Positions 6,575-12,022 of a stretch of 64,000 nt of DNA are shown here, in pieces. Position 1 is the stretch's first letter, and each line of letters opens with the position of its first letter. The DNA is from Armatimonadota bacterium (lineage in GTDB: Bacteria; Armatimonadota; DTGP01; JAKQQT01). Where the stretch lies: NCBI GenBank assembly GCA_036504095.1, contig DASXVS010000048.1, forward strand, positions 124,001-188,000, read 5' to 3'. The notes beneath the pieces were generated by a model that made no database searches, was not told the DNA's origin, and worked only from the letters and a program-made list of their open reading frames with translations. The position numbers were made by a program, and so were the translations under genes.

Positions 6575-6696
6575 CCCGCCTGATTCGTGACGCCCAAACC
6601 TACCACGGAGGCTCACGGAGGGCACGGAGGAACACGGAGGAAGCGATGAATTGGGAATGCAGAATACCGACCGGCGTAGCGCGGGCGCCCTCGCCC

Positions 6697-6958
6697 GTTT
6701 CACGGTAGGGGCGGCGTCCTCGCCGCCCATCGGGGCGTCCGGAGCCCCCCTACCCCCCAATGCTGGGGGACCAAACGGGGAGGGTGGCACGATGTGGCGC
6801 CGGCCTCCGTGCCGGCGTTCGTTCTCACGGTAGGGGCGGCGGGGGTGCCGGGCATTGCAAATTGAAAAATGCAAAATGCAAATATCAAAATGCCCGATCG
6901 GACCTACAGCCTCGGCCGTTTCACGGTAGGGGCGGCGTCCCCGCCGCCCTCCGGAGCC
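6697..6958. repeat. Three palindromic GGGGCGGCG repeats
   Basis: A motif beginning TTTCACGGTAGGGGCGGCG and continuing into its own complement (CGCCGCCC) occurs at about 6699-6728 and 6919-6948. A degenerate copy sits near 6823-6845. Each intact copy folds as a GC hairpin. The 6575-7069 gap otherwise holds short CACGGAGG repeats and an A-rich stretch near 6855-6890; no gene is seen. Confidence 0.6.
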
Positions 6959-7084
6959 CTCACCCCAGCCTTCTCCCCAGGGAGAGGGAGCACGTCTGCC
7001 CCATCTGATCGATTTTCCGTATAGCCCAAAGCCAGATTCCGGTTCCCCCTCGCCCGCAGGGAGAGGGGGTTAGGGGGTTAGGGC
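6956..7084. repeat. ~130-bp element with inverted ends, copy A (divergent interior)
   Basis: The left end GCCCTCACCC and the right end GGGGTTAGGGC are imperfect inverted repeats. Inside are CTCCCC-AGGGAGAGGGAGCACG and a TTCCGGTTCCCCCTCGCCCG block shared with the copies at 7535 and 7748. The right end supplies the stop codon and last codons of the DUF559 gene. Confidence 0.6.
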
Positions 7085-7456
7085 TTCGGTGATTCTGGCC
7101 AGTACCGCCTCAATATCGCCGGTCACTTCGTCATTCGTCACGCGAAGCACCGCGAAACCATTCGCCACCGCCCACTCATCGCGCACCGAATCGCGCTCGG
7201 CTTGCTGCGCGTGAATTCCGCCGTCCACCTCGACGATCAGCGCCGCGGAGTGGCAATAGAAGTCTGCGATGAATGGCCCGACGTTGTGTTGGCGCCGGAA
7301 CTTCGCCTTGCCAAGCCGGTGGTCGCGGAGGCGCTCCCAGAGCAATTCCTCGGCGGGCGTCTGGTCGTGCCGAAGCTCCCGAGCGCGTGAAAGGAGTGGG
7401 TCTTGTATCCTCCGGGCACGTCCGGCCAAGATCGATTGTTCATCGGTAGTCGGCAT
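7070..7456 (-). CDS. DUF559 domain endonuclease-like protein
   Basis: The 128-residue product matches the DUF559 family, which has a PD-(D/E)XK/Vsr-like fold. Visible features are the N-terminal RARELRHDQTPAE, then LLWERLRDHRLGKAKFRRQH, then GPFIADFYCHSAALIVEVDG with the acidic catalytic-type residues Asp, Glu and Asp, and FAVLRVTNDEV. The ATG at 7456 is preferred over a GTG at 7471 that lies in repeat-like sequence. The last codons and stop are contributed by the repeat element at 6956-7084, and two further copies lie upstream. The family's function is not established. Its persistent contact with repeat elements here is the notable point. Confidence 0.82.
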   Translation of the reverse strand: MPTTDEQSILAGRARRIQDPLLSRARELRHDQTPAEELLWERLRDHRLGKAKFRRQHNVGPFIADFYCHSAALIVEVDGGIHAQQAERDSVRDEWAVANGFAVLRVTNDEVTGDIEAVLARITEALTP

Positions 7457-7534
7457 GGTGGCGGCCCTCACCGCCCCGTATAGGAGAATACGACGGCCAA
7501 ATATGGCATGGAGTCCGGCCGTACGCCGCGTGGG

Positions 7535-7663
7535 GCCCTCACCCCTCGCCCTCTCCCCGGGGGAGAGGGAGCGCGTTTGCTAGAATCGTCCAGTTTGTCG
7601 TTTCCGCGAAACCTATTCCGGTTCCCCCTCGCCCGCAGGGAGGGGGGGCTAGTGGGTGAGGGC
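7535..7663. repeat. ~130-bp element with inverted ends, copy B
   Basis: It begins GCCCTCACCC and ends GGGTGAGGGC, a perfect 10-bp inverted repeat. The interior is nearly identical to copy C at 7748, including the shared core GCTAGAATCGTCCAGTTT. Similarity to copy C extends about 45 bases further left, around GGCCAAATA. Confidence 0.75.
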
Positions 7664-7747
7664 TTCGGGACGTAGCGTCACCGCTCATCCATACGGGTGA
7701 ATGGGTCGGCCAAATACAAAATGCTGTCCGGTCTTGCGCCGCGTGGA

Positions 7748-7880
7748 GCCCTCACCCCTCGCCCTCTCCCCGGGGGAGAGGGAGCACGTTTGCTAGAATC
7801 GTCCAGTTTGGTGTTTCCGCGAAACCCATTCCGATTCCCCCTCGCCCGCAGGGGGAGGAGGCTAGGGGCTGAGGGGCTCC
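7748..7880. repeat. ~130-bp element with inverted ends, copy C
   Basis: This close copy of 7535-7663 differs by scattered substitutions. Its right end (GGGGCTGAGGGGC) is degenerate and encodes the C-terminus and stop of the HEPN-like gene, just as copy A does for DUF559. Confidence 0.75.
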
Positions 7881-8545
7881 GAGGCGCCGCGCTTGACCTT
7901 TCCTGCCGCATGTGCATCTAGAGCCGAGCCGAGCATCCACTCAAACTCGCGCAGTATGTCCTGCTTAGCCAAATCGAACGACGACCACTCACACTCCTCA
8001 AAGTAGCCTTCGAAAATGTTTACGACCTCCGAGATTTCGATATAGAGCGCCTCAGCTTCTGTCACCCGAACGGATACAGGAGGCGCACCTCTGCCGGGTC
8101 CGTATAGGGCCGAGTGAGCGAAGAACTTGTTTCGTAGCGTGCGCAACCGCTTAACGAGATAGTGCTCCCTGATCCATCTTTCAGAGGCCTCGACTGCTCC
8201 GAGCAACTCATCACGGGTCGGAGCATGAATGAACCCATCCGGTTGGTTCTCGGCTTCGGCCAGGAACCTTGGAAGACTGGCATGGTCAAAGCGCTGATGA
8301 ACGGGATCAAGTATCCGGCTGAGCGCCATAATGGCCTCACAACGGCAGCCCTTAAGAATGCTCTGTAGAAACCAGGTGTTGCCGGGCAAACGGTCGTCTC
8401 CGATGGCCTCAACGATAGCCTGCCAAGTGCAAAGGCACAGCCAGCCTCCAGCGAAGTCATCCCACAGAATCTTGAAGCGCCTCTCGAGATCACTTCTTCT
8501 CGGCGCGATATCTCCTACGTTCGCCGTTGTGCCCGAAACCTCCAT
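7862..8545 (-). CDS. HEPN (AbiU2-like) domain protein
   Basis: The 227-residue helical protein carries RNKFFAH at about residue 140, an R-x5-H motif in the RX4-6H range of HEPN RNases. It is preceded by ALSRILDPVHQRFDHASLPR, as in AbiU2-type HEPN proteins. The ATG at 8545 was chosen because AGGAGG lies 9 bases upstream. The last residues come from repeat copy C. The gene follows a deleted DNA methyltransferase by 47 bp, so it was probably part of a restriction or defence operon. RNase activity is inferred from the motif and could be absent. Confidence 0.65.
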   Translation of the reverse strand: MEVSGTTANVGDIAPRRSDLERRFKILWDDFAGGWLCLCTWQAIVEAIGDDRLPGNTWFLQSILKGCRCEAIMALSRILDPVHQRFDHASLPRFLAEAENQPDGFIHAPTRDELLGAVEASERWIREHYLVKRLRTLRNKFFAHSALYGPGRGAPPVSVRVTEAEALYIEISEVVNIFEGYFEECEWSSFDLAKQDILREFEWMLGSALDAHAAGKVKRGASEPLSP

Positions 8546-8592
8546 TGCCTCGTCCCTCCTGCATCTCCAAGCTTCCCTGCCCACTCTCAGCC

Positions 8593-8888
8593 TTAGCTGA
8601 AAGCGCCAGCTTGTTTCGACCCCTTATGAACCGGTTGGCTTGGAAACACAAACCCGTGGCTGGCAAGGAGTTGCTCCACGGTACGGAATTGGATGCCCGC
8701 GATGCGCAGGTCATTTAGGGAGCAATCTCAAGACGACCAGTACCCTCGCCGGTCTGTTCCTTGAAGAGGACGTTGTCGTCCCGGTTGGTGTTGAAGGGTG
8801 GATCTAGGTAAACGAGGTCCACGCACGCATCGGGCACGTGCTTGCGGAGGATTTCGAGGTTATCGCCGTAGAACAGGGTGTTGCGCAT
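8593..8888 (-). pseudogene. Internally deleted site-specific DNA methyltransferase
   Basis: The N-terminal piece starts at an ATG at 8888 and encodes MRNTLFYGDNLEILRKHV, then LVYLDPPFNTNRD. That is the typical start and DPPF motif of an N4/N6 adenine or cytosine methyltransferase. After about 53 codons its frame ends at 8715. From about 8712 down to 8593 a different frame reads DLRIAGIQFRTVEQLLASHG, which resembles the extreme C-terminus of the same family (IQ-x-x-T-V-E-Q-L-L). The central several hundred residues, including the SAM-binding motif, are gone and the junction is out of frame. It directly precedes the HEPN gene. Confidence 0.7.
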
Positions 8889-8984
8889 GGGATGGGCCTC
8901 CGAACATCTGTTGCGAGTGTGTGTGCGCGCGATGCGCGGCGATTTCAAGAGCCGGCATTCAGCATCCAGCATTCAGCATCCGGC

Positions 8985-9270
8985 ATCCAGGGTGGGGCCA
9001 TCGCTGCGCGACGGATGCGGGCGAGGCGCGCGGGCAACGGGCGAGACGCCGATCGTACCGTGGGCCGGCATCCAGGGCGGAGCCGTCGCTGCGCGCTGGT
9101 AACCGGTGGGACGCCGCTCGTACCGTGGGCCAGCATCCAGGGTGACGCCGTCGCTTCGCGACGGATGCGGGCGGGGCGCCCGCGCTACGTTGGGGCGGCA
9201 GCCGGCATCCAGGGTGACGCCATCGCGGCGCGACGGATGCGGGCGGGGCGCCCGCGCTACTGGAAGATGG
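8985..9270. repeat. Four imperfect ~75-80-bp tandem repeats
   Basis: Units begin GGCATCCAGGG near 8987, 9066, 9133 and 9207 and continue through CGACGGATGCGGGCG(A/G)GGCGC into CCCGCGCTAC or related sequence. More GGGCAACGGGCG blocks continue to about 9360. Similar GATGCGGGCGAGGCGCCCGC sequence also occurs inside the exporter operon gap near 1820-1845, so the family is dispersed. No coding sequence is supported across 8889-9596. Confidence 0.6.
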
Positions 9271-9425
9271 AAGTTGGATGGTGGATGCGGACGGATGGGC
9301 TCGCCCGCGCGGGCAACGGGCGAGGCGCGCGGGCAACGGGCGGGACGCCCGTTCTACTGGGATCCTCTGCGTTACCTCCGCGTCCTCCGCGTCCTCCGCG
9401 GTGAGTTCGGCGATTGTTGTCGTTG

Positions 9426-9482
9426 AGATTCTTCGCTTCGCTCAGAATGACAGCGGTGTCGGGCACGGAGGCCCGACCTACC
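9426..9482. repeat. Dispersed intergenic repeats
   Basis: GATTCTTCGCTTCGCTCAGA (9427-9446) is a repeat type seen between genes in many unrelated bacteria. The adjoining 25 bases at 9458-9482 are the exact reverse complement of 43754-43778. Partial copies occur near 42433-42515. Confidence 0.6.
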
Positions 9483-10753: not shown

Positions 10754-12022
10754 ATGGACCGAACCCTGCGTAACCCGCCTTGTCCGCCGTTGCGGCCGGA
10801 CAGGCTCCTCGCCGCGCTGGCGGTGCTTGCACTCCTCGTTCCCGCCTCACGCGCGGACATTGTCATCCCCGGCGCCAACGGCTCCGACGGCGCCCTCAAC
10901 GTTACGGCCAACACTACCATCGACCTCTCCCAGGCCGTGGCGGCCAGTTGGGATGCGACCAGCCCGTCCCCGGGCAAGGGAGTTTACGATGGCGCCAAGT
11001 GGGCGGTTGTCTTCAAGTACTCCAGCGTCAACATCGCCTCCGGCGTGACCCTGAGCTTCAAGAACAACGCTTCGCACGCGCCCGTCGTCTGGCTCGTCAA
11101 CGGAAACGTGACCATCAGCGGAACGGTCAACCTCGACGGCGCCAACGGGGTGATCTCATCGACGACGCCCGGACCCACCGAGCCCGGACCCGGCGGGTTT
11201 CGAGGCGGACCGCCTTTCCAATCCGCCACTCTGCTCCCCGGATATGGGTTTGGCCCCGGCGCACCGGTTGGCTACCACACGGGTGGATCCTATAGCCAGG
11301 TGGGTGCGGGCACGTCGCCGGGAACGGCGTATGGCAACACCCTCATTGTTCCGCTTGTGGGTGGCTCCGGCGGAGCGGCATATTCGGCTACATCGGACCG
11401 TTCCGGGGGCGCCGGGGGAGGCGCGATATTGATCGCCGCCACCGCTCAGGTTACCGTGAACGGCACCATCAGCGCCGTCGGTGGTGACATCAGTTCGGTC
11501 GAAGGGTGCGGCAGCGGAGGCGCGGTACGCATCATGGCAAACGCGCTCGGTGGAACCGGCATCATCAGGGCAATCGGGGGAATTGCAGGCAGCACTTCCG
11601 GCGGCGACGGTTTCATCCGCCTGGAGGCGCTCTCGGTGGGTGGCAACCTCAATGTGTTGCCCGCCACGGCGGTCGAGCCGCCGACGAGCCCCGTGACGCT
11701 CTGGGCGCCGACCACAGCCCCCTCGGTGCGCGTGGTTTCCGTTGGCGCGAGCGCCGTTCCGTCGGATCCGTCGTCCAGCCTCGGCCCCGCGCCGGCGGAC
11801 GTGCGGTTCTACAGCGCCGCGCCGCTGACCGTGACGATTGAAACGAAAAACGTCGATACCGTCAACTCCAAGGTGACTCTGCGCGTAACGCCGAAATACG
11901 GGCCCGCGGTCCTCGTGGCCGCCACGTACGCCAGCGGGACCACCGCGACCGCCCTCTGGACGGCTCCTGTTTCCGTGCCGCAGGGCTTCAGCGCCATGCA
12001 GCCACGCGTCGACCCGAAGTGA
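10754..12022 (+). CDS. Secreted glycine-rich beta-structured protein
   Basis: The ATG at 10754 gives a 422-residue protein with a signal peptide (residues about 15-36, LLAALAVLALLVPASRA). A mature region rich in Gly, Thr, Val and Ser follows, with repeated GTVNLDGANG, GGAILIAATAQVTVNGTISA and GGGG-type turns. This is typical of surface beta-helix or adhesin-like proteins with short gly-rich repeats. The C-terminal 100 residues form a separate beta-rich segment (DVRFYSAAPLTVTIETKNVD). It is followed after 7 bp by a second secreted protein. The substrate or binding partner is unknown. Confidence 0.75.
   Translation: MDRTLRNPPCPPLRPDRLLAALAVLALLVPASRADIVIPGANGSDGALNVTANTTIDLSQAVAASWDATSPSPGKGVYDGAKWAVVFKYSSVNIASGVTLSFKNNASHAPVVWLVNGNVTISGTVNLDGANGVISSTTPGPTEPGPGGFRGGPPFQSATLLPGYGFGPGAPVGYHTGGSYSQVGAGTSPGTAYGNTLIVPLVGGSGGAAYSATSDRSGGAGGGAILIAATAQVTVNGTISAVGGDISSVEGCGSGGAVRIMANALGGTGIIRAIGGIAGSTSGGDGFIRLEALSVGGNLNVLPATAVEPPTSPVTLWAPTTAPSVRVVSVGASAVPSDPSSSLGPAPADVRFYSAAPLTVTIETKNVDTVNSKVTLRVTPKYGPAVLVAATYASGTTATALWTAPVSVPQGFSAMQPRVDPK

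Follow-up and report, generated by a model that had tools for sequence, protein, structure and literature searches.

Short palindromic repeats are common across bacterial genomes, and RAYT transposases are the known partners of REP elements. In the stretch of Armatimonadota DNA analysed here (the window, 64,000 nucleotides), three such repeats lie around the gene for a small nuclease of the DUF559 family (Table 1), which raises the question of whether this nuclease mobilises or recognises them. The answer favoured here, which sequence comparison makes fairly likely, is that the locus holds a REPIN-like mobile palindrome with a dedicated homing-like nuclease of the Vsr/EDxHD type, DUF559.

Table 1. 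Coordinates of the nuclease gene, the palindromic elements and the adjoining gene in the window
Feature	Position	Strand	Description
DUF559 (PF04480) PD-(D/E)XK nuclease gene	7070..7471	-	133 aa, active-site residues intact
Element 1	6956..7084	+	129-bp palindromic repeat with outer inverted ends and two hairpins; gives the DUF559 stop codon
Element 2	7535..7663	+	129-bp palindromic repeat on the opposite side of the DUF559 gene from element 1
Element 3	7748..7880	+	133-bp duplicate of element 2, right end degraded; gives the HEPN stop codon
Tandem duplication	7476..7875	.	7476-7662 and 7689-7875, 86% identity, spacing 213
HEPN_AbiU2-like gene	7862..8584	-	Pfam HEPN_AbiU2 3.3e-8; adjoins the cassette, outside the general element

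The three elements listed in the preliminary description are real. All begin with GCCCTCACCCC, and their right ends read TTAGGGC in element 1, GGGTGAGGGC in element 2 and a degraded GGGGCTGAGGGGC in element 3. Inside the outer inverted ends (GCCCTCACCC.../...GGGTGAGGGC) each element has two hairpins, at CCCTCTCCC/GGGAGAGGG and CCCCCTCgCCCgcaGGGaGAGGGGG. As single-stranded DNA, elements 1, 2 and 3 fold better than shuffled sequences (z -2.1, -3.7 and -4.2), and when as many as 3 mismatches are allowed the pattern CCCTCACCCCNNNCCCTCTCCC has 2 matches in the window versus 0.04 expected. An Rfam search returned no matching family. Because elements 2 and 3 share a 187-bp duplication, they do not represent independent insertions. 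The stop codons of the DUF559 and HEPN genes do fall inside elements 1 and 3, as had been described; this is incidental, since the DUF559 ORF on another contig of the genome (C42) has its stop codon, at 567-569, just outside its own element. Upstream of element 1 lies another repeat family (6689-6957), with TCACGGTAGGGGCGGCG at 6700, 6825 and 6921 and 48-nt copies at 6689 and 6910; a stretch resembling these repeats occurs on contig C64 (L020, ~11850-11900).

A genome-wide count with a look for clustering at DUF559 genes had been proposed as a check. The genome search finds only five full-length copies in 4.68 Mb, and all five are at DUF559 genes: three in the window and two on C42, where they flank a second DUF559 gene that is 75% identical to the window's and adjoins an HEPN_AbiU2 gene. 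The remaining two DUF559 genes of the genome also lie between palindromes of different sequence, one in an inverted pair CCCTACCCCGGCTCGC...CCCTCCCTgaaGGGAGGG and the other among CCCCCTCCCCCAGCCCC...GCGCTGCGG elements. Partial solo copies occur at an hsdR-hsdM-hsdS locus on C64.

The association extends far beyond this genome. Eighty DUF559 loci were collected via protein similarity, and more came from genomes of the window's phylum. With 500 bp per side compared, a flank match of at least 30 bits is present at 72% of 107 DUF559 genes versus 5.6% of 535 control ORFs taken from those loci; a threshold of 45 bits gives 62% and 2.2%. A second set of 90 loci from three other phyla, picked by Pfam score only, gave 49% and 33%. 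No flank match was found for 28% of the first DUF559 set and 51% of the second. Within 500 bp of the domain there are 94 copies of the head motif CTCACCCC and 74 of the head motif CTAACCCC, versus about 3 and about 2 per later 500-bp bin, a drop of ~30-fold past 500 bp. Copies scattered evenly, with no enrichment at DUF559 genes, had been named as the contrary outcome; this is not the distribution found. Moreover, a head (CCTxxCCCC) followed by a hairpin with a stem of at least 7 bp, all within 600 bp, is present at 142 of 203 DUF559 loci versus 17 of 427 control segments. These comparisons establish that matching ends of one architecture flank DUF559 genes in at least 10 phyla. For example, in Neisseria gonorrhoeae (L307; NZ_CP119142, 45587-53916) three near-identical ~115-bp repeats with the CCCTCTCCC hairpin flank a DUF559 gene related to 3hrl/NGO0050, and on plasmid pAQ6 of Picosynechococcus sp. 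PCC 7002 (L314) ~120-bp repeats lie on either side of a DUF559 gene that has a PIN gene as one neighbour and a DUF1156 gene as the other. Viral contigs yielded just three DUF559 loci.

If the repeats were ordinary REP or REPIN elements moved by RAYT (Y1 tyrosine) transposases, DUF559 would be a passenger between two copies. The genome does have seven Y1_Tnp matches, the repeats resemble REPINs in their size and form, and some carry a GTAG-like CTAC head. However, the repeat pattern is absent within 1.5 kb of all 19 RAYT loci from this and related genomes, and the genome's own RAYTs at L146 (C80:205100-208500) and L147 (C45:42800-46200) have a different REP, GTCGGCTTCAGCCGAC, repeated on both sides. 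Repeat number also follows DUF559. Across 61 genomes, the median number of pattern matches is 8 with DUF559 versus 0 without (MWU p=4.5e-4), the DUF559 effect holds within RAYT-positive genomes (p=0.003), and RAYT makes no difference at constant DUF559 status (p=0.10 and 0.56), all of these values being uncorrected for kinship. Some genomes have many repeats without a strong DUF559 gene (236 matches in G012 and 385 in G043). The association in at least 10 phyla is likewise not predicted by a passenger role, and RAYT was rejected as the mobiliser. That explanation is highly improbable.

The resemblance to the REP/RAYT arrangement that the preliminary description saw persists in organisation and is lost in the enzyme. 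Like REPs and REPINs with their RAYT (TnpA-REP), DUF559 repeats are short, dispersed palindromes with an unpaired tag, often in inverted pairs; nuclease-bearing units coexist with nuclease-free derivatives, with one nuclease lineage per repeat type. Unlike the Y1 HUH transposase of RAYTs, the flanked gene encodes an unrelated PD-(D/E)XK Vsr-like nuclease. The tag of the DUF559 unit also differs in resembling the stem sequence, and in-frame insertion into restriction-modification genes is frequent. The element falls outside the REPIN/RAYT class because it has neither a Y1 transposase nor a GTAG tag.

Evidence for insertion comes from units that lie within genes. Many are in frame, with the repeats translated as SPSPxGEG-like linkers, and their hosts are chiefly restriction-modification genes: MmeI-type, type III Mod, HsdM, HsdR and DUF1156 methyltransferase genes. 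The MmeI-type hosts have at least three different insertion positions, of which two fall within the methyltransferase domain. Insert-free orthologous MmeI genes exist (66-77% identity); the insert lies after VNWxK, its terminal repeats at L054 are a perfect 12 bp (GCCCTCATCCCC/GGGGATGAGGGC), and the same MmeI genes contain further in-frame insertions of repeat only. Comparison with uninterrupted relatives demonstrates that units insert in frame into genes, mostly those of restriction-modification systems.

The unit exists in two forms. A methyltransferase gene on a plasmid of Synechocystis sp. B12 contains a left hairpin, DUF559 and a right hairpin, and the homologous gene of Pseudanabaena galeata carries, at the same place and with the same two ends, an in-frame solo repeat of ~100 bp that lacks exactly the DUF559 stretch of 353 bp. 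Alignment of the two demonstrates that gene-free and gene-bearing forms have common ends and share one location within a methyltransferase gene. A 758-bp element-DUF559-element cassette in Sinorhizobium sp. K101, arranged as in the window, is an insertion when compared with the empty site of Shinella sp. PSBB067, whose sequence is 82% and 81% identical to the cassette flanks. No clean target-site duplication was found at these insertions: L054 has only a possible 2-bp CA, and the Shinella/Sinorhizobium site has additional bases on both sides.

The frequency of restriction-modification genes among the hosts admits a second explanation, in which DUF559 serves restriction or defence, either fused to such genes or located beside them, and the repeats are linkers or recombination scars of defence islands that the nuclease never touches. 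Such genes are enriched among neighbours as well as hosts (of 140 nearest neighbours, 13 fit type IIG/DrmMI models and 8 a type III model, and among 118 genes 5-9.5 kb away no methyltransferase family is in the top families listed, singletons excluded), and DUF559 often adjoins PIN, HEPN and toxin genes. A defence role is hard to reconcile, however, with insertions that split the MmeI methyltransferase domain (L055, L078), with the same ends occurring as solo copies without the gene, and with repeat-flanked DUF559 genes beside housekeeping genes, including sufB/sufC, sapF/fabI in E. coli and hpa genes in Deinococcus. This explanation is unlikely.

Most repeats have the head CCTCACC or CCTAACC and a minority CTACCCC. 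CCTCAC heads pair with CTCTCC stems (65:0) and CCTAAC heads with CTTCC stems (22:0), a covariation of 65:0 versus 0:22 (p=4e-21); CCTCC and CCTAC heads pair with CTCCC stems. Because head and stem vary together, this pattern suggests that the head and the stem arms may be copies of one recognition motif. Repeat type also tracks the DUF559 clade more than the host phylum, since none of 5000 label shuffles within phyla reaches the observed value. The clades bear the signatures KFRRQH..G and HFRRQQ.I.G, and in the first set the correspondence of RRQH with CTCA and of RRQQ with CTAA was strong (42:4 versus 3:25). A specificity code of a single residue (RRQH versus RRQQ), with the rule fixed beforehand, was rejected when it failed on 90 new loci (p=0.46), because those loci belong to another subclade. 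The match of nuclease to repeat is retained at the level of the clade only.

The nuclease shares its predicted fold with a homing endonuclease. The window protein matches Pfam DUF559 (PF04480) at 3.6e-35 (120.6 bits, cut-off 20.6), and its predicted structure, with a mean pLDDT of 83, matches in Foldseek NGO0050 (3hrl), the homing endonuclease I-Bth0305I (3r3p) and Vsr. The profile match to 3hrl is at 4e-33; I-Bth0305I is detected both by profile (E=2e-5, 3r3p) and by Foldseek (E=1.9e-4). Across 38 sequences, residues D70, E81, D83, H87 and D94 (alignment numbering) show little or no variation. Profile and structural model agree that the DUF559 nuclease is homologous in sequence and predicted fold to I-Bth0305I, with the active-site residues kept. 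At three loci (L034, L043, L040) DUF559 is the endonuclease domain within a HINT intein, the host at L034 and L043 being a DNA methyltransferase-like gene (CGSGTTAYCAEKW).

The same fold is compatible with a third explanation: DUF559 might process palindromes or mismatches, by acting on hairpins or in Vsr-like repair, with selection for the linkage, while another transposase in trans moves both. Besides the similarity to Vsr, the Caulobacter DUF559 protein VsrA is tied to cytosine methylation and the SOS response (PMC12907096). Processing alone leaves unexplained why the gene sits inside a unit whose ends are those of solo copies, and why DUF559 homing endonuclease domains occur in HINT inteins (L034, L043). 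It is improbable as an account of the repeats.

Further comparisons place the unit among known elements. Like EDxHD/Vsr-like homing endonucleases such as I-Bth0305I, DUF559 has the same nuclease fold and detectable sequence homology, its insertion sites are empty in relatives (the MmeI genes and the Shinella site), and like intein homing endonucleases some DUF559 domains sit within HINT inteins. Unlike either, most DUF559 units are free of introns and inteins and end in palindromic repeats, and gene-free copies of the ends exist. MITEs and IS (DDE) elements combine terminal inverted repeats with a target-site duplication and, in the full element, a DDE transposase; the DUF559 unit has terminal inverted repeats, and no target-site duplication could be read at its insertions. 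Among repeats that still lack an explanation, the closest are the CGTC REPs and the Rickettsia palindromic elements (RPEs), which also lie in frame within protein-coding genes and are reported to have no dedicated transposase (PMC3733652; PMC10969869). They carry a CGTC tag, unlike the CCTxxCCCC head of the DUF559 unit, and a CGTC-type motif is absent near 12 DUF559 loci from a plasmid collection.

Since DUF559 genes lie inside palindromic repeats that appear to insert themselves with or without the gene, it is probably this nuclease that supplies the mobility enzyme so far missing from a widespread class of small mobile DNA. From the association, the architecture, the insertions, the two forms and the relation to a homing endonuclease, we infer that DUF559 may cut the repeats and drive their spread. 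The unit would consist of a left end (head CCTxxCCCC and hairpin), the DUF559 gene or a short spacer, and a right end (hairpin and mirrored head), the gene-free version, 129 bp in the window, representing a non-autonomous form. The DUF559 protein, probably as a dimer, would recognise the CCTxxCCC motif repeated as head and stem arms and cut either the element ends or a target. The break might then receive a copy of the unit or of its gene-free form, via homing-like recombination repair or via transposition. Because the ends are free of stop codons and read as Pro/Ser/Gly-rich linkers (SPSPxGEG), insertion within a gene would be tolerable. A broader proposal can be put forward only tentatively: that a separate class of prokaryotic mobile elements spans phyla, in which the single-domain PD-(D/E)XK nuclease DUF559 alone recognises hairpin ends, spreads its own unit and gene-free palindromes with a preference for restriction-modification genes, comes in lineages matched to their repeats, and has relatives that may mobilise REPs lacking a transposase.

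The E. coli K-12 protein YcjD (b1289, encoded between sapF and fabI) brings this proposal into a model organism. Previously just a predicted PD-(D/E)XK protein (PMC1189080), it is a DUF559 protein (Pfam 1.4e-49) that is 44% identical to the window protein. Both belong to the same Pfam family and have adjacent repeats. At the ycjD locus (L317; NC_000913 1351407-1351760) palindromic repeats lie directly downstream of the gene, between it and fabI. Two E. coli chromosomes have 17 and 27 matches to the ycjD repeat region, mostly of a dispersed core of ~45 bp, largely at different sites in the two chromosomes, and presence varies by strain. Four presence/absence sites in E. coli are polymorphic, and no target-site duplication is readable at them because alternative sequence fills the gap in place of a clean insertion. 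The eef/ycjD allele was considered as an empty site and proved unusable, because the eef operon occupies that place in strains lacking ycjD. In the open-access library searched, no paper was found that ties DUF559, COG2852 or ycjD to palindromic repeats.

These results tie one widespread class of palindromic repeats to DUF559, a large family of small nucleases that await characterisation. Testable members exist in E. coli K-12 (ycjD) and in PCC 7002, a tractable cyanobacterium. If the proposal is correct, DUF559 would gain a function and the known mobile elements a further class, possibly together with a nuclease of naturally small size whose target is defined by a hairpin; the Pro/Ser/Gly-rich inserts without stop codons that spoil gene annotation would also be accounted for. 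A further question is why in-frame insertions fall mainly in restriction-modification genes.

The HEPN gene was considered as a component of the system and rejected. The only homologue of the window's HEPN gene to be found lies at the second cassette of this genome, on C42, where an HEPN_AbiU2 gene of 45% identity occupies the same place; HEPN is a bystander particular to this genome. Directly upstream of it, an ORF of 85 aa (8715-8972, minus strand) looks by eye like the truncated start of an N6/N4 DNA methyltransferase, with a DPPFN motif, and a Pfam search of this ORF returned no match. The region 8838-9426 contains many imperfect repeats, which ORFs read as GRGARAT/SRVTPSLRDG.
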